Shown: positions 1 to 6,601 of the stretch, in pieces
How the letters are laid out: every line of letters starts with the position of its first letter
Numbering within the stretch: position 1 is the first letter of the stretch
NCBI GenBank assembly: GCA_903930515.1
Contig: CAIYYW010000226.1
Location: 1 to 6,912, forward strand
Length of the DNA stretch: 6,912 nt
Origin: an uncultured delta proteobacterium
GTDB lineage: Bacteria > RBG-13-61-14 > DRUE01
Direction of reading: 5' to 3'
The notes under the pieces: generated by a model
Told to the model about the DNA's origin: nothing
The model's database searches: none
The model's input: the letters and a program-made list of their open reading frames with translations, nothing else
Position numbers and translations under genes: made by a program

Positions 1-729
1 ATCCCGGTCCTGGTCGGGTTCCAGGATAGTTCGCTCAGGTGGGTTTATCATTTCCGGGTTGAGCGGCCGAAAGGGTTGCACGAGCTTGAGCGGAATTTAA
101 AATTGCTGGAGCCGATTACCGAGCTTCCCAAAAACTTTTCGCCCAGGCTCCGGCTTCCGCTCCCGGAAAATTTTGATCCGGCACGGTTCGGGATCAAGCC
201 GGAAGATCATCCCCTGATCGGCTTTTCTCCCGGCGCGGCCTGGGAGACCAAACGCTGGCCCGCGGAAAAATTCGCGGACCTGGCCCGGCTTCTGTCCCGG
301 GAACTCAACGCTAAAATTTTGCTCTTGGGCGATCAGGAGAACGCTCCGGTTTGCGCGGAAATAGAAAAACGCTCCGGCCTTTCCCTGCTCAATCTCGCGG
401 GCAAGACCAAAATCCAGGAGCTGTTCGGGATCGTCTCCCGGCTGGACCTGCTGGTCACCAATGACAGCGCGCCCGTGCATATCGCCTCGGCCTTCTCGGT
501 CCCCGCCCTGGTGATCTTCGGACCCACGGTTCCGACCTTCGGGTTCGGCCCCTGGAACAATCCGGCCCGGATCATCCAGCGCGATCTTCCCTGCCGGCCC
601 TGCCACCATCACGGCCCGCGGGAATGTCCGGAAGGGCATTTCCAGTGTATGCTGGGAATAAAGCCCGAGGAGGTTTTGGCCGCGGCCGGGGAATTATTGT
701 CTGAGAGGGATCGTTCTCGCGCGGGATAA
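1..729 (+). CDS. Family 9 glycosyltransferase (ADP-heptose:LPS heptosyltransferase-like), 5' end outside window
   Basis: This gene is partial. The frame is open from base 1 with no stop upstream, so the true start lies left of the window. 242 codons are visible, and roughly 100 residues are missing compared with usual family members of about 340. Family members transfer heptose from an ADP-sugar to the LPS inner core at the cytoplasmic face of the inner membrane. Visible support: HELERNLKLLEPI (codons 26-38), typical of the domain linker; the FSPGAAWETKRWP stretch starting the C-terminal Rossmann half (about codons 75-87); TNDSAPVHIASA (from base 457), the nucleotide-sugar binding signature; FGPTVPT just after it; and the C-terminal CRPC, ECPEGH and QCM cysteine cluster seen in WaaF-type heptosyltransferase II proteins. 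Which sugar it transfers cannot be read. The TTG at 76 is an internal leucine codon, not the start. The next gene begins three bases after the stop, so the two are probably cotranscribed. Confidence 0.9.
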   Translation: MPVLVGFQDSSLRWVYHFRVERPKGLHELERNLKLLEPITELPKNFSPRLRLPLPENFDPARFGIKPEDHPLIGFSPGAAWETKRWPAEKFADLARLLSRELNAKILLLGDQENAPVCAEIEKRSGLSLLNLAGKTKIQELFGIVSRLDLLVTNDSAPVHIASAFSVPALVIFGPTVPTFGFGPWNNPARIIQRDLPCRPCHHHGPRECPEGHFQCMLGIKPEEVLAAAGELLSERDRSRAG

Positions 730-732
730 AAA

Positions 733-2307
733 ATGGAATTCAGAAGGATCAGGCGGGAACGATGGCAATGGGATTTGGTCCCGGAATTATGGCCGGTGGA
801 ACCCGAACTGTTTGCCCAACTGCAAGACCCGAAGAAGGATTTCCGATCCCGGCTGGTTTCGCGGCAAGACCGGGAGTCCTGGTATGAGAGCAAATTGGAT
901 CATCCGAAATTGCCGGCCTTGATCTGGATCCGCGTCCGGGATTACAGCGAACTCAACCCTTTAAACTTCTTCTGGCGCAAAACCAATTTCCGATCAGCCT
1001 TCCTCCGGATGGGAGAACTCGGCCCGAAAAAATCCTTCGTCCCCAGGCCCTATGCCTGCGGCAGGATGAGAAGGGATTTGAGGGTTCAGCGAGAGGTATT
1101 GGCATTCGCCCCCCTGACCCATTTCCAGCCCCTGCCCCAATGGTTGAAGGACAATTTTGATTACCGGCTGACCCGGAACTCCTTTGAAGACAAGAAAGAC
1201 CTGACCCGACGACTGATGAGTGCGTTTCGGGAAATGTTTTCCAGCCAGGTCGCCCTGGGGCCGGATTCCATCCTGGAGGATTTCCTCTGCCGGATGGATG
1301 AAGAGCTGAGGATCGTCTTCCGCTTTCCGGAAAAAATCCGGATCCGGGAGCGGACCCCGGAGGCGCAGAGGCATTTCCTCGCCTGGCTCCTGCTGGAGCT
1401 GAGGCCATATCTCCCCAAGACCTATTTGATCCGGCTTCTCAATTCGTTCCTGCAGGCAGAGGGTCTGGGAAAAAAATCGCTCCATTCGGAGTTTCAGGAA
1501 ATATTTTCCCGGGCAGAGCAAATCCTGGATCGGCGGATTGAAAAAATGCAAAAGCAATTCTGGCGGAAAAAATCATCCTTCTTCTGGTTCGACCTCAAGG
1601 CCGGGCGGGTCTTGCTCCATTATTCCATTGACCAGAACCAGGCCCTGGGGCTGATCCCGCAACTGGCCCTGCTCAGCCGGAGACGGGAGAAGATCAGGAT
1701 CACGCCGATCGGGGAAAAGGAACCGCTGGAATGTGAAGTGATGGAGGCGACGGCGAAGCCCGGGAACGAACGTCCGGTGACCCGGGCCTTTTGGTTTTAC
1801 CAGCGGCTCCTGCTGGAGAATGTCCCGGGCCAAAGGCCGCTGCTGGGAGTGGAATCCAGCCGGGGAGATTTTTTGATTTATCAGCCGCTCAGTTCCTCCA
1901 GTGTGGGTTTGAATGAATATTTGGCGCGGGTGTTGGCGGACGAGCTTTCCGGCAAAAGCTGGGATCGGAAAATATTGCTCCGGCTGGCGCATCTGCTCCT
2001 GGCCCTGCACGAGCGGGGAATGGTTTACCAGCAGCCGCAAGGGGACGAGATTTGGGTGGAAGAATTGCCCGAGGCCAGAATGAATTTTTATCTGACCCAT
2101 CTGGAGCGGCTGGCCGCGGCTGGGCGATTGGAGGCCGAATCCGCCGGCAGGAATTTATTTGAAATATTTTCCTCCCTGCCGCTCTCCGAGCCGGATTCCC
2201 TGATCATCCTGGAGGAATATTTAAGGCACACGGCCAAGTTCAAGGATTTCAAGAAAAGTTTCAGCGCGCATTCGCATTTAACCGGAAGGGCGGGAAGCGG
2301 TAGTTGA
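733..2307 (+). CDS. Tandem LPS-kinase-like protein, apparently a double pseudokinase
   Basis: This 524-residue cytosolic protein has no signal peptide or membrane segment. Two halves each resemble the Kdo/WaaP-type LPS kinase fold. Half A (about residues 60-245) shows a PRPYACG N-lobe turn at 105-110, a helix at 155-169 leading into the catalytic-loop position, and the family-like tail RPYLPKTYLIRLLNSFL (224-240). A charged helical linker follows (about 247-280). Half B (about 281-500) has LALHERGMVYQQPQGDEIWV, which lines up without gaps with the kinase pattern LHxxGxxHRDLxxxNILV. The catalytic residues are replaced: His-Arg-Asp becomes Tyr432-Gln433-Gln434, the metal-binding Asn becomes Glu439, and the DFG-position Asp becomes His456. 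In half A the HxD position reads Leu-Gly-Pro (175-177). Family assignment is inference from these patterns. Active LPS kinases phosphorylate core sugars; this protein more likely binds or regulates, perhaps scaffolding the flanking glycosyltransferases. The start is ATG, with GGGA 6 bases upstream. The stop overlaps the next start. Confidence 0.72.
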   Translation: MEFRRIRRERWQWDLVPELWPVEPELFAQLQDPKKDFRSRLVSRQDRESWYESKLDHPKLPALIWIRVRDYSELNPLNFFWRKTNFRSAFLRMGELGPKKSFVPRPYACGRMRRDLRVQREVLAFAPLTHFQPLPQWLKDNFDYRLTRNSFEDKKDLTRRLMSAFREMFSSQVALGPDSILEDFLCRMDEELRIVFRFPEKIRIRERTPEAQRHFLAWLLLELRPYLPKTYLIRLLNSFLQAEGLGKKSLHSEFQEIFSRAEQILDRRIEKMQKQFWRKKSSFFWFDLKAGRVLLHYSIDQNQALGLIPQLALLSRRREKIRITPIGEKEPLECEVMEATAKPGNERPVTRAFWFYQRLLLENVPGQRPLLGVESSRGDFLIYQPLSSSSVGLNEYLARVLADELSGKSWDRKILLRLAHLLLALHERGMVYQQPQGDEIWVEELPEARMNFYLTHLERLAAAGRLEAESAGRNLFEIFSSLPLSEPDSLIILEEYLRHTAKFKDFKKSFSAHSHLTGRAGSGS

Positions 2308-3434
2308 AGGAAAAATTAAAACTGTTGATTTACGCGCCGATCCGCTGGCTCAACGCCGAGACGGAATACCTACTGGTCTTGTGCCGGAGGCTCAAGGAGC
2401 GCGGGGTGGAAATCGTGATCATGGGCTCGGAAGGAAACCCGATGTTGGAGGCGGCGAAAAAAGCGGGCCTGCGGGTGGAAGACCGGTTTGATTTGCTTTC
2501 GCTGAATCCCCTGAAAATCGGCCTGGCCATTCCGAGACTGAAGCGATGGATGAGCGAGGAGAAATTTGACCTCATTGATATTCACCGCTCCGAGGGGTTT
2601 GTCATCCTGGCTTCGCTGGCGCGAAGGCTCCATCCCCGGCCGGCCCTGATCCGCACCCGGCAGGATATGCGGCCGGCGCGGACCGATCCGATCAACCGCT
2701 GGACATATCGCTCAATGGACAAGGTAATTGTGTCCAACCAACTCCTGGCCGAGGACCTGATCGCCAGGCTCCGGATGGATCCCGACAAGGTCCGGGTGAT
2801 TTATTTCGGGATCAATCCCGAAGAATTCAAGCCGGCCAAATCGCCGGAAGCAATGCGCCAAGAACTCGGGCTCCGGCCGGAATGGAGACTGGTCGGACTA
2901 TCCGCGAGGCTGGCCGTGGTCAAAGGGCATCAGTATTTCTTGGAAGCCGCGAAGAAAATTTCCGGGCAGATGCCGGAAGCCCGGTTCCTGATCTCTTACC
3001 GCAAGGTTGAAAAAGAATGCGATTTCCTCGCCCGGCTGGACCGAAGTTCGCTCAAGGATAAATTTTTCGTCTTCGGGCCGAGAGATGACCGGGCGGATTT
3101 GCTCAACCTCTGCGAGCTGGGCGCGATCAGTTCGGTCGGGAGCGAGGCCAGCAGCCGGGCCTGCCTGGAATGGATGGCGCTGAAAAAACCGGTGGTGGCC
3201 ACCCGGGTGGGAACTTTGCCCGAGTTGGTGATCCCGGCCGAGACCGGATACCTGGTGATGCCCAGGGATTCAAACGGATTGGCCGGCGCGATCCTGAAAC
3301 TGCTCCAGAACCCGGAGCGAGCCCGGGAAATGGGCGAGCGGGGATACCAGGTCTTCCTGCAAAACTTCCAGGAAAAAATTATGATTGAAAACACCCTTCA
3401 GATTTTATCGGAGTTGACCGGGAAAAAGGCGTAG
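2304..3434 (+). CDS. Glycosyltransferase family 4 (GT-B fold)
   Basis: This complete 376-residue enzyme is predicted to add a sugar from a nucleotide-sugar donor to a growing LPS core or other surface glycan on the cytoplasmic side. The N-terminal Rossmann half shows an acceptor-side loop, APIRWLNAETEYLL (11-24), plus HRSEG (94-98) and RTRQDMRP (117-124), which mark a recognisable GT4 subgroup. The C-terminal half holds FGINPEEF (168-175), the phosphate-binding pair Arg202 and Lys207 in ARLAVVKG, and the retaining-enzyme motif EX7E (Glu281 to Glu289, EASSRACLE), followed by KKPVVATRVGTLPELV. All the expected catalytic elements are present, so it should be active. The start is TTG. Its bases 2-4 form the upstream TGA stop (TTGA overlap), so translational coupling is likely; a GGGA sits 8 bases upstream. 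Donor and acceptor sugars cannot be predicted. Confidence 0.9.
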   Translation: MKEKLKLLIYAPIRWLNAETEYLLVLCRRLKERGVEIVIMGSEGNPMLEAAKKAGLRVEDRFDLLSLNPLKIGLAIPRLKRWMSEEKFDLIDIHRSEGFVILASLARRLHPRPALIRTRQDMRPARTDPINRWTYRSMDKVIVSNQLLAEDLIARLRMDPDKVRVIYFGINPEEFKPAKSPEAMRQELGLRPEWRLVGLSARLAVVKGHQYFLEAAKKISGQMPEARFLISYRKVEKECDFLARLDRSSLKDKFFVFGPRDDRADLLNLCELGAISSVGSEASSRACLEWMALKKPVVATRVGTLPELVIPAETGYLVMPRDSNGLAGAILKLLQNPERAREMGERGYQVFLQNFQEKIMIENTLQILSELTGKKA

Positions 3435-3435
3435 C

Positions 3436-4242
3436 TCAGAGCAGGTCTTTAACCAGCTCAATCAGTTTGGGCATTGCCTGTCCGGAGGGGGCGGGAAGGT
3501 AAACCGCGCTGATGGAATTGTAATAATTATCGGTGGGATTGATCTCAATGATCTTGGCCTTCCGGTCATAGGCCTGGCAGGGAATCGCGGCCGCGGGATA
3601 GACCACTCCGGAGGTTCCCAGCACCAGCATCAGGTCGCAACTTTCAGCCTGGGCAAAGGCCTCGGGCATTTGCTGGACCTGCTCCCCGAACATCACCACA
3701 TCCGGCCGGGTCAGGCCCTGGCAATTCGGACAGCGCGGCAGCAGCTGGACCAAGTTCATTATTTCAAAATCAGCGGGCGCTGCGGCAAAAAAGTTTTTCA
3801 GACGCGCCAGCAACTCCTGCTTGTTGAGCTGCTGTTTCCTTCCGCAATTCAAACAGCGCGCCCGGAACAGGTTCCCATGCACCTCAATCACATTACTGCT
3901 TCCAGCCTCCTGATGCAGGTTGTCAATATTCTGGGTGATGATGGCTTTCAACAGCCGCAACTCTTCCAGGGCCTTAAGCCCGAAATGCCCGGGATTGGGC
4001 CGGGCCTGTTCAAAAATCACCGCGGTTTGCAGGAAAAAATCCCGGATCAATTCCGGCTTGCGCATCACCGTGGCGATAATCCCGCCCGTGGTCCCGATTT
4101 CGTCCGGGTCAAATTGATCCCAGAGTCCGCCCGGATCTCGGAAGGTCGGGATTCCGCTCTCGGCGCTGATCCCGGCTCCGCTGAACGCGACAATGGTTTT
4201 GCTGTTCGCGATTATTTCCGCGGCCTTTTGATATTGGTCCAT
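3436..4242 (-). CDS. cobB: Sirtuin, NAD-dependent protein deacylase (SIR2/CobB family)
   Basis: This complete 268-residue cytosolic enzyme removes acyl groups from protein lysines using NAD, releasing nicotinamide and O-acyl-ADP-ribose. In bacteria it commonly regulates acyl-CoA synthetases and other metabolic enzymes. The NAD-binding GAGISAESGIPTFRD spans residues 22-36, TQNID is at 103-107 and the catalytic His is 122 (EVHG). Two zinc-binding CxxC pairs lie at Cys130/133 and Cys171/174, and GTSGVVYPA at 209-217 follows. All catalytic and zinc residues are present and the length is normal. The motif style is class III (CobB/SIRT5-like), but the Tyr-x-x-Arg pair that binds succinyl or malonyl groups is replaced by Phe70 and Thr73, so deacetylation or another deacylation seems likelier than desuccinylation (inference). 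The ATG is supported by GGGAG five bases upstream. It converges on the glycan operon and diverges from the RCC1-repeat gene. The symbol denotes the family; strict orthology is not shown. Confidence 0.95.
   Translation of the reverse strand: MDQYQKAAEIIANSKTIVAFSGAGISAESGIPTFRDPGGLWDQFDPDEIGTTGGIIATVMRKPELIRDFFLQTAVIFEQARPNPGHFGLKALEELRLLKAIITQNIDNLHQEAGSSNVIEVHGNLFRARCLNCGRKQQLNKQELLARLKNFFAAAPADFEIMNLVQLLPRCPNCQGLTRPDVVMFGEQVQQMPEAFAQAESCDLMLVLGTSGVVYPAAAIPCQAYDRKAKIIEINPTDNYYNSISAVYLPAPSGQAMPKLIELVKDLL
3439..3459. terminator. Imperfect hairpin at the convergent gene junction, possible terminator
   Basis: GAGCAGGT (3439-3446) pairs with ACCAGCTC (3452-3459) around a 5-base loop, giving seven base pairs and one A-A mismatch. 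It starts four bases after the glycosyltransferase stop and lies inside the last codons of the sirtuin gene. No T-run follows on the plus strand. On the minus strand a run of five T lies about a dozen bases beyond the hairpin, so any terminator action would favour sirtuin transcripts. It could also be chance pairing in coding DNA. Confidence 0.3.
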
Positions 4243-4393: not shown

Positions 4394-6601
4394 ATGCGAA
4401 TAAAAAAATCAGGATGGGTCCTGCTCGGAATCGCCATTGGGATTTGTATGTGCGGCAGGGACCGGGGAAATGTCCGCTCAGCCGGAGAGGGATCGGACCA
4501 GGCGCGACAAATTTCCAAAGCCGCGGCTGAAAGCTGGGATAAATTTTCCACAGGCGGCAGGCATAGCTGCGCGATCGCGGATGACGGCGCCCTCTGGTGC
4601 TGGGGATATAATTATTACGGACAGCTCGGGAACGGGTCCAGCGCGGATCAGGTCAGCCCGGTGCAGGTCGGCCTGGAAAAAAACTGGGCCTCGGTTTCCG
4701 CGGGCGGGGATCATACCTGCGCGCGGAAGAATGACTCAAGCCTCTGGTGCTTTGGAAGGAATGACCGGGGACAGCTTGGGGATGGCTTGGGCGCGGATAA
4801 AAAGGATCCGACCCGGGTCAACCTGGATTCGGATTGGGCCGCCATCTCCGCGGGGCTGACCCATAGCTGCGCGAAAAAAAACCAAGGAACCCTCTGGTGC
4901 TGGGGAGACAACAGCCACAGCCAGCTCGGAGACGGCGCCAACCAGGATCGCTGGTCGCCGGTCCGAATCGGCAAAGCTACGGACTGGAAATCCCTTTCCT
5001 CCGGCGGCTATCACACCTGCGCGGTTAAAAAGGATCATACCCTCTGGTGCTGGGGTTCCACGGTCAGCGCCTCCAAGCCGGCCAAAGTCGGCAAGGCATC
5101 CAGTTGGGTCTCAGTGTCCTCCGGCCGCGAGCACATCTGCGCCAAGATGACCGACAAGAGCATCTGGTGCTGGGGCTCCAACAACTACGGCCAGCTCGGG
5201 CGCGGAAACAATACCGATCTGAACCGGCCGGCGCGCGTGGGCAGGAGCAAGGACTGGGCCTCGGTTTCCGCGGGCGGGTATCATAGCTGCGCGAAAAAGA
5301 CCAACGGATCCCTCTATTGCTGGGGCAGGAACCAATACGGACAAACCGGAGTCGGCGACACCGGGGTAAGGTATTCGCCGGTCCGGGTCGGCATCTATGA
5401 TAATTGGGACTCGGTTTCCGCCGGCGAGTATCATAGTTGCGCGAAAATGACCGGAGGATCGCTCTGGTGCTTCGGCTTGAACAACTCCGGCCAGATCGGG
5501 ATCGGAGAGGTTGCCAACAAAAATTCCCCCTCCCCCGTTGACTCGGACACCAACTGGTCAAGTCTATCAACCGGGTATGAACATTCCTGCGCCCGAAAAA
5601 GCGATTCCACCATCTTCTGCTGGGGAAATAACACTTCCGGACAGCTCGGGCTGGGAAATAATTTGAACCAGGATCTACCGACCCGGGCGGGAAGCCTCGC
5701 GGAATGGGTTTCAATCGCCTCCGGCTGGTATCATACCTGCGCGAAAAAAAATGACGGAACCTTATGGTGCTGGGGAAACAACGCGGATGGACAGCTGGGA
5801 ATCGGAAACAATTTGATCATCAAGAACAATCCCACCCTGGTCGGCTCGGACACCAACTGGGATTCCTTTACCGTGGGCGGGTATCATAGTTGCGCGCTAA
5901 AAACCACCGGAGCCATCTGGTGCTGGGGGCTGAACAATGACGGCCAGCTCGGAGATGGAACAACTGCTATCAATAGAATCGCCCCGGCCCAGACCGGATT
6001 GGATGCGGATTGGGCGCGGGTTTCAGACGGGTATCGCCATAGCTGCGCGAAAAAAATCGACGGAACGCTCTGGTGCTGGGGGGCCAATGCCTACGGGCAA
6101 CTGGGGGATGGAACCAATGATGACAAAAATACTCCAGTCCAGGTCGGCGCCCTTAATACCTGGGCAGAACTGAGCGCCGGTGGCGGGCATAGCTGCGCCC
6201 GAAAAACCGACGGAACGCTCTGGTGCTGGGGATATAATTATTACGGACAGATCGGGGACGGAACCACCTCGGATAAAAACGCGCCCACCCAACTGGGATT
6301 GGATCCGGACTGGCAATCCGTCTCGGCCGGGCTTTATCATACCTGCGGACTCAAAGCCGGCGCGCTCTTCTGCTGGGGACAAAATTCTTTCGGTCAGCTT
6401 GGGGACGGCGCAGATATTGATCAGCTTGCCCCGGTGCAAAGCGGATCGGATACGGATTGGGCTTTGGTCTCGGCCGGCTCTGATTATTCCTGCGCGATAA
6501 AAATCAACGGGACTATTTTTTGCTGGGGAAATAATTCACTCGGACAACTCGGGGATGGCACGGCCTGGAAAGAAAACCCACAACTGGTGAATAAGCCATA
6601 A
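4394..6601 (+). CDS. Exported RCC1-repeat beta-propeller protein, fourteen repeats
   Basis: This 735-residue protein has an export signal: basic residues at 2-5, then a hydrophobic stretch (7-20) ending in Cys18 and Cys20. The lipobox is not canonical because the residue before each cysteine is Ile or Met, so a lipoprotein is possible but unproven. After a short polar linker, residues 48-735 consist entirely of fourteen RCC1-type repeats (consensus WxSVSAGxxHSCAKKxDGTLWCWGxNxxGQLGDG, split here as WxSVSAG, HSCA, LWCWG and GQLGDG). RCC1 domains fold as seven-bladed propellers, so fourteen repeats suggest two propellers in tandem. Every repeat has a Cys in HxCA and a Cys in WCWG, 28 in total, which could form a disulfide in each blade in the oxidising periplasm or outside the cell. 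There is no anchor or catalytic motif; a binding, adhesion or envelope role is inference. It is divergent from the sirtuin gene, and no downstream gene is visible in the window. Confidence 0.9.
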   Translation: MRIKKSGWVLLGIAIGICMCGRDRGNVRSAGEGSDQARQISKAAAESWDKFSTGGRHSCAIADDGALWCWGYNYYGQLGNGSSADQVSPVQVGLEKNWASVSAGGDHTCARKNDSSLWCFGRNDRGQLGDGLGADKKDPTRVNLDSDWAAISAGLTHSCAKKNQGTLWCWGDNSHSQLGDGANQDRWSPVRIGKATDWKSLSSGGYHTCAVKKDHTLWCWGSTVSASKPAKVGKASSWVSVSSGREHICAKMTDKSIWCWGSNNYGQLGRGNNTDLNRPARVGRSKDWASVSAGGYHSCAKKTNGSLYCWGRNQYGQTGVGDTGVRYSPVRVGIYDNWDSVSAGEYHSCAKMTGGSLWCFGLNNSGQIGIGEVANKNSPSPVDSDTNWSSLSTGYEHSCARKSDSTIFCWGNNTSGQLGLGNNLNQDLPTRAGSLAEWVSIASGWYHTCAKKNDGTLWCWGNNADGQLGIGNNLIIKNNPTLVGSDTNWDSFTVGGYHSCALKTTGAIWCWGLNNDGQLGDGTTAINRIAPAQTGLDADWARVSDGYRHSCAKKIDGTLWCWGANAYGQLGDGTNDDKNTPVQVGALNTWAELSAGGGHSCARKTDGTLWCWGYNYYGQIGDGTTSDKNAPTQLGLDPDWQSVSAGLYHTCGLKAGALFCWGQNSFGQLGDGADIDQLAPVQSGSDTDWALVSAGSDYSCAIKINGTIFCWGNNSLGQLGDGTAWKENPQLVNKP
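4592..4624 (+). repeat. 33-bp exact repeat, copy 1 (RCC1 repeat 1)
   Basis: Identical to 6218-6250 in repeat 12, bounded by mismatches on both sides. It encodes LWCWGYNYYGQ, and the same synonymous codons are used in both copies. Confidence 0.9.
6218..6250 (+). repeat. 33-bp exact repeat, copy 2 (RCC1 repeat 12)
   Basis: Partner of 4592-4624. The two copies are eleven repeats apart, although intervening repeats differ here at both DNA and protein level, which suggests exchange between distant units. Confidence 0.9.

Follow-up and report, generated by a model that had tools for sequence, protein, structure and literature searches.

The 524-aa protein encoded at positions 733 to 2307 of the window is probably (rough probability 0.55) a pseudokinase descended from fused LPS core kinases, which would bind a core intermediate and/or the GT9 and GT4 glycosyltransferases encoded on either side of it. 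The window is the whole stretch of DNA analysed, an entire 6,912-base contig (C226) of a 3.6-Mb MAG (G000) from a little-known phylum. Its features are compared below with those of Deltaproteobacteria bacterium RBG_13_61_14 (G002).

1..729, + strand: GT9 heptosyltransferase-like gene, 5' end cut by the contig end (PF01075, E 2e-34; 48% identity to the G002 neighbour)
733..2307, + strand: tandem LPS-kinase-like pseudokinase, 524 aa, one ORF with a colinear G002 orthologue
733..1557, + strand: half A, residues 1-275, fast-evolving, kinase-like by alignment
1258..1284, + strand: former catalytic loop of half A, residues 176-184, GPDSILEDF, aligned to HxDLxxxN
1558..2304, + strand: half B, residues 276-524, conserved, kinase-like
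1906..2010, + strand: alpha-D and start of alpha-E of half B, residues 392-426, NEYLARxxADExSGxxWDR, the top-conserved stretch
2026..2052, + strand: former catalytic loop of half B, residues 432-440, YQQPQGDEI, aligned to HxDxxxxN of tandem kinases
2304..3434, + strand: GT4-type glycosyltransferase gene (PF00534/PF13439; 50% identity to the G002 neighbour)

The pseudokinase gene begins with ATG and runs through 524 codons in a single open frame, as the original prediction held, and Pfam identified its neighbours as GT9 and GT4, confirming the position between two glycosyltransferases. The GT9 stop lies at 729, 3 nt before the pseudokinase ATG, and the TTG at 2304, the presumed start of the GT4 gene, shares TTGA with the TGA stop of the pseudokinase, giving a 4-nt overlap. 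In both halves, GC by codon position and codon preference match those of the neighbouring genes and are host-like. The GT4 gene is convergent, with nearly no spacer, with a Sir2-family deacylase-like gene (3436-4242, - strand; PF02146, E 1e-46). The window also encodes a 735-aa RCC1-repeat protein with about 13-14 repeats (4394-6601, + strand; PF00415, PF13540), the hydrophobic, cysteine-containing N-terminus of which resembles an export or lipoprotein signal. The genome carries a Kdo transferase-like gene, named by reading of its sequence, beside another GT9, and a Kdo-type LPS core is therefore plausible.

The window protein gave no match in Pfam at E<=1 (PF06293 and PF00069, Pkinase, included), in NCBIfam, in the PDB by phmmer or in the phage collection by tblastn, and it gave none as a single-sequence query against the genome contigs. 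With the alignment as query, the scan of the genome contigs returned a sole match, the orthologue in G002 (P0002), a protein of 550 aa aligned over residues 12-510 with 25% identity (E 2e-39). G002 (record MGQK01000034.1) belongs to the window's order and to another family, and is the nearest relative outside the genus among the genomes examined. The orthologue matches PF06293 in two stretches (E 1.2e-14; 54.7 bits vs a cut-off of 21.3) and has no match to Pkinase (PF00069); a search with PF06293, which had been put forward as a check, thus succeeds with the orthologue and fails with the window protein itself.

A profile of tandems from other phyla, built without members of the window's phylum, gives the window protein 45.3 bits, against 7.2 for the best of 1000 shuffles, so kinase ancestry holds. 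Alone, half B receives 32.3 bits from this profile and half A 12.8, the latter rising to 24.3 bits once relatives are added. With tandem profile A5, to which both the window protein and the G002 orthologue contribute, the top PDB chain is WaaP of P. aeruginosa (6dfl; E 1.7e-24). The double LPS-kinase ancestry originally proposed is borne out by these homologues; judged from sequence, it is secure for half B and for the protein as a whole, and moderately well founded for half A, where it leans on colinearity. The description of the protein as duplicated agrees with its colinearity with tandem relatives, but a comparison of its half A with its half B finds no likeness (Z = 0.6), whereas the halves of intact tandems resemble each other (Z 14-31). 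The shuffle control also led to the rejection of two other candidates, namely a glycosyltransferase and an unrelated fold with chance kinase motifs. AlphaFold2 models from the two-sequence alignment, in both orders, reached pLDDT values of 45.3 and 40.8, at which no fold can be assigned. With low confidence they place helices after the C-lobes, where LPS kinases of the PF06293 type have a C-terminal three-helix sub-domain whose basic face binds acyl-ACP. Kinases fill most of the top Foldseek rows for the low-confidence model, with the BIR2 pseudokinase first and no E under 0.03; VIA-align of residues 293-387 to a kinase N-lobe gave a best Z of 5.9, a hint that lies below a meaningful level by itself.

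According to a study of P. aeruginosa WaaP, the mutants K51A, H161A, D163A and D188N did not support growth and E78A was severely impaired, while the loop Asn position of this enzyme is occupied by His (H168) (PMC6147952). Loss of the equivalents of K51, E78, H161, D163 and D188 should therefore abolish kinase function. The residues aligned to these positions in half A are R67 (Lys), A89 (alpha-C Glu), G176-P177-D178 (HxD), D183 (Asn) and F198 (DFG Asp); half B has no Lys and carries Y432-Q433-Q434 (HRD), E439 (loop Asn) and H456 (DFG Asp). The original prediction was exact for half B, where it had read Tyr-Gln-Gln at HRD, Glu at the loop Asn and His at the DFG Asp, and the alignment also confirms its Arg67 at the beta-3 Lys position of half A. 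Its Leu-Gly-Pro at the HxD of half A was one residue off: both MAFFT and the profile-HMM give Gly-Pro-Asp, so the catalytic Asp may have been kept as D178. A three-sequence MAFFT alignment sets this loop differently, so half A is partly ambiguous. The proposed loss of both active sites thus stands for half B, and for half A it stands with respect to Lys, Glu, Asn and DFG Asp, with D178 possibly kept. Both halves are pseudokinases by the definition of lacking at least one of Lys, HRD Asp and DFG Asp, and the WaaP-essential residue set (K51/E78/HRD/DFG type) is incomplete in the window protein.

In the G002 orthologue, half A contains K70, E93, R179-P-E181, N186 and D203 (H>R, D>E), and half B contains H453-L-Q455, N460 and D477 (D>Q); both catalytic Asp are lost (to Glu and Gln) and the metal-binding residues are kept. 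The replacement of the half-B catalytic Asp by Gln is common to the window protein and the orthologue, so the simplest view puts this loss before the two families diverged. Compared with the LPS heptose(I) kinase WaaP/RfaP (6dfl) and PF06293, the window protein shares, by profile, the fold family and the order of elements, and its gene likewise lies among LPS core glycosyltransferase genes. It differs in consisting of two fused copies, in the absence of a PF06293 match of its own, and in having neither half with Lys, Asn and DFG Asp and a half B that also lacks HRD Asp.

Tandem LPS kinases with two kinase halves are present in several other, mostly tiny, phyla. Full K/D/N/DFG sets in both halves were found in five of the 13 aligned tandems (G311, G026, G049, G175 and G058 C201), although half B of G311 has His>Gln in its otherwise complete set. 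These intact tandems have the two-domain layout of the window protein (~520-580 aa), and some are fused to or located beside a GT2; unlike the window protein, they have lost none of K, HxD, N and DFG Asp from either half, apart from the G311 substitution. One half is degenerate in four of the 13, namely half B in G058 C154, G002 C45 and G000 C221, and half A in G028. One-half degeneration has thus recurred among these fused kinases, with the window protein as the extreme case: within the 13, catalytic residues are lost in both halves only in the window protein (with the caveat of D178 in half A) and its orthologue. For the proposed comparison of catalytic positions among homologues, both catalytic Asp are accordingly replaced in the orthologue but intact in several tandems from other phyla. 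The aligned tandem of G088 is cut by a contig end. In the G229 tandem (L087:1363-3036, + strand), which has a second tandem-like protein just upstream, His replaces the loop Asn in both halves, as H168 does in WaaP; this tandem looks separate in the tree of halves, which is poorly resolved (4/25 branches well supported).

A second tandem, 'b', occurs in all three genomes of the window's phylum (G000 C221, G002 C45 and G001 C556), at L043:649-2088 (- strand), L034:1270-3009 (+ strand) and L041:1207-2043 (+ strand), and adjoins a GT4 in the window's genome. In contrast to the window protein, its half A (QRD..S..DLE) keeps Lys, Glu, catalytic Asp and DFG Asp; its half B is degenerate beyond recognition in two genomes and truncated at a contig end in the remaining one. 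In three lineages a tandem kinase carries a GT2 at its N-terminus, namely G088 (L052:3-2363, - strand), G175 (L074:1-2508, + strand) and G028 (L079:376-2901, + strand; half A dead, half B intact), which suggests physical coupling of LPS kinases and glycosyltransferases. In half A of the G028 protein, Lys is replaced by Gln and Glu by Ser, and HxD reads L-N-N, the mirror image of the 'b' tandems.

In the mechanism that we propose, the gene descends from two fused LPS core kinases (PF06293, Kdo/WaaP type); its product, now a tandem pseudokinase, would no longer perform phosphate transfer. The surface of half B that once faced the substrate, perhaps together with the C-terminal helices (lipid/ACP-binding), would be used for holding; the partners held at the inner membrane would be an LPS-core intermediate, the GT9 and GT4 enzymes encoded on either side, or both, and such holding would help to order core assembly. 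The real phosphorylation could be supplied by the paralogous tandem with K, D and DFG Asp in half A. A scaffold or binding role in LPS core assembly is plausible because GT2-fused tandem kinases occur in three other lineages. From its position in the sequence alignment, the alpha-D/alpha-E stretch of half B has a lipid or ACP as one candidate ligand, which is a guess. A bolder form of this proposal is that the two proteins represent a new class of tandem pseudoenzymes organising core glycosyltransferases, in which both halves were catalytically dead before the split and the alpha-D/alpha-E stretch of half B is a new, conserved, non-catalytic interface that would bind the core intermediate or the GT enzymes; we advance it tentatively. 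Alternatively, the pseudokinase might act in trans by pairing with the semi-intact tandem (G000 C221) or another LPS kinase as an allosteric switch. Regulation of kinases by pseudokinases is an established mode, and a paralogue with K, D and DFG Asp intact in half A is encoded in the window's genome, where it has a GT4 neighbour, in the genus-mate and in G002; however, pseudokinase and paralogue lie on different contigs, and we regard such a switch as unlikely.

Across the G000/G002 split, identities are 50% for GT4, 48% for GT9, 32% for a single LPS-kinase-like protein, 31% for half A of tandem 'b' and 25% for the pseudokinase, which has thus evolved faster than related proteins, though not wildly so. 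The window protein and its orthologue agree at 7/32 positions of the catalytic segments, whereas two intact pairs with similar overall identity agree at 39/64 (Fisher p 4e-4), the constraint statistics being those of one orthologue pair. Residues 392-426 (alpha-D/alpha-E of half B) are identical to G002 at 20/35 positions vs 24% overall, and this is the best 35-column segment of the alignment (permutation p = 0.0004, for a peak found post hoc). The half-B sequences of the window protein and orthologue group together with 100/100 support; the stem of their clade is long (2.26) and its tips are of ordinary length (1.11 and 1.24), while the half A branch reaches 4.44 changes per column in the window vs 1.09 in the orthologue. 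We read this as a probable burst of change at about the time when catalysis was lost, after which half B came under constraint again, with half A apparently much less constrained in the window's lineage; its branch of 4.44 leaves room for ongoing decay of half A. The GT9...GT4 context around the pseudokinase is kept in the two families, with a GT2 gene inserted in G002 that shares 4 nt with the start of the pseudokinase gene. A search of the only genus-mate, a MAG of 820 contigs with 87% completeness, did not recover the locus; the GT4 orthologue is missing there too, and the GT9 gene that matches best is part of another locus.

These data also bear on relaxed selection, under which the gene would be heading to a pseudogene and its frame would be open only since the decay is recent. 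Catalytic constraint is indeed gone, the half A branch is long, and half A scores 79 against the orthologue half A, below the 85 of the highest of 300 shuffles. Nevertheless, 524 codons remain open with host-like codon preference in both halves, the orthologue, devoid of catalytic Asp, has stayed intact and syntenic in a different family, the Asp-to-Gln change of half B is common to both proteins, so that the loss most simply occurred before the split, and half B combines normal tip rates with a conserved non-catalytic stretch; we regard relaxed selection on the gene as improbable. The original view that the gene is maintained rather than decayed agrees with the syntenic orthologue lacking both catalytic Asp and with the relocated constraint on half B, but less well with the fast evolution of half A. 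It is very improbable that the protein is still an enzyme with displaced or different chemistry through D178 (HxD) and D183 (Asn position), as in SelO-type atypical kinases: although MAFFT and the HMM both set D178 at the catalytic Asp, and the loop Asn position tolerates change, being His in WaaP (PMC6147952), ATP-Mg binding should not survive the combination of Lys>Arg, alpha-C Glu>Ala and DFG Asp>Phe, half A is less conserved than half B, and Glu replaces the HxD Asp in the orthologue.

Pseudokinases have been studied mainly in eukaryotes. For bacteria, a 2025 review described seven Ser/Thr-type families, and lipopolysaccharide and Kdo kinases are unmentioned in it (PMC12599244). The Ser/Thr pseudokinases ActPs1-3, GLW and CP1 resemble the window protein in that all three catalytic motifs have diverged and their function is unknown (PMC12599244); they belong, with DYD and DLHK, to the bacterial Ser/Thr kinase tree, whereas the affinity seen for the window protein, with Pfam (PF00069 included) and the tandem profiles, is to LPS kinases. 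Our search of the literature outside subscription journals found no description of a pseudokinase or pseudoenzyme in the LPS sugar-kinase family. If the reading of the window protein as a binding pseudokinase is confirmed, it would mean that LPS kinases can persist as binding proteins within the core-assembly pathway. The series from intact through half-dead to doubly dead tandems already provides proteins with which to ask what purpose is served by the second half of such fused kinases.
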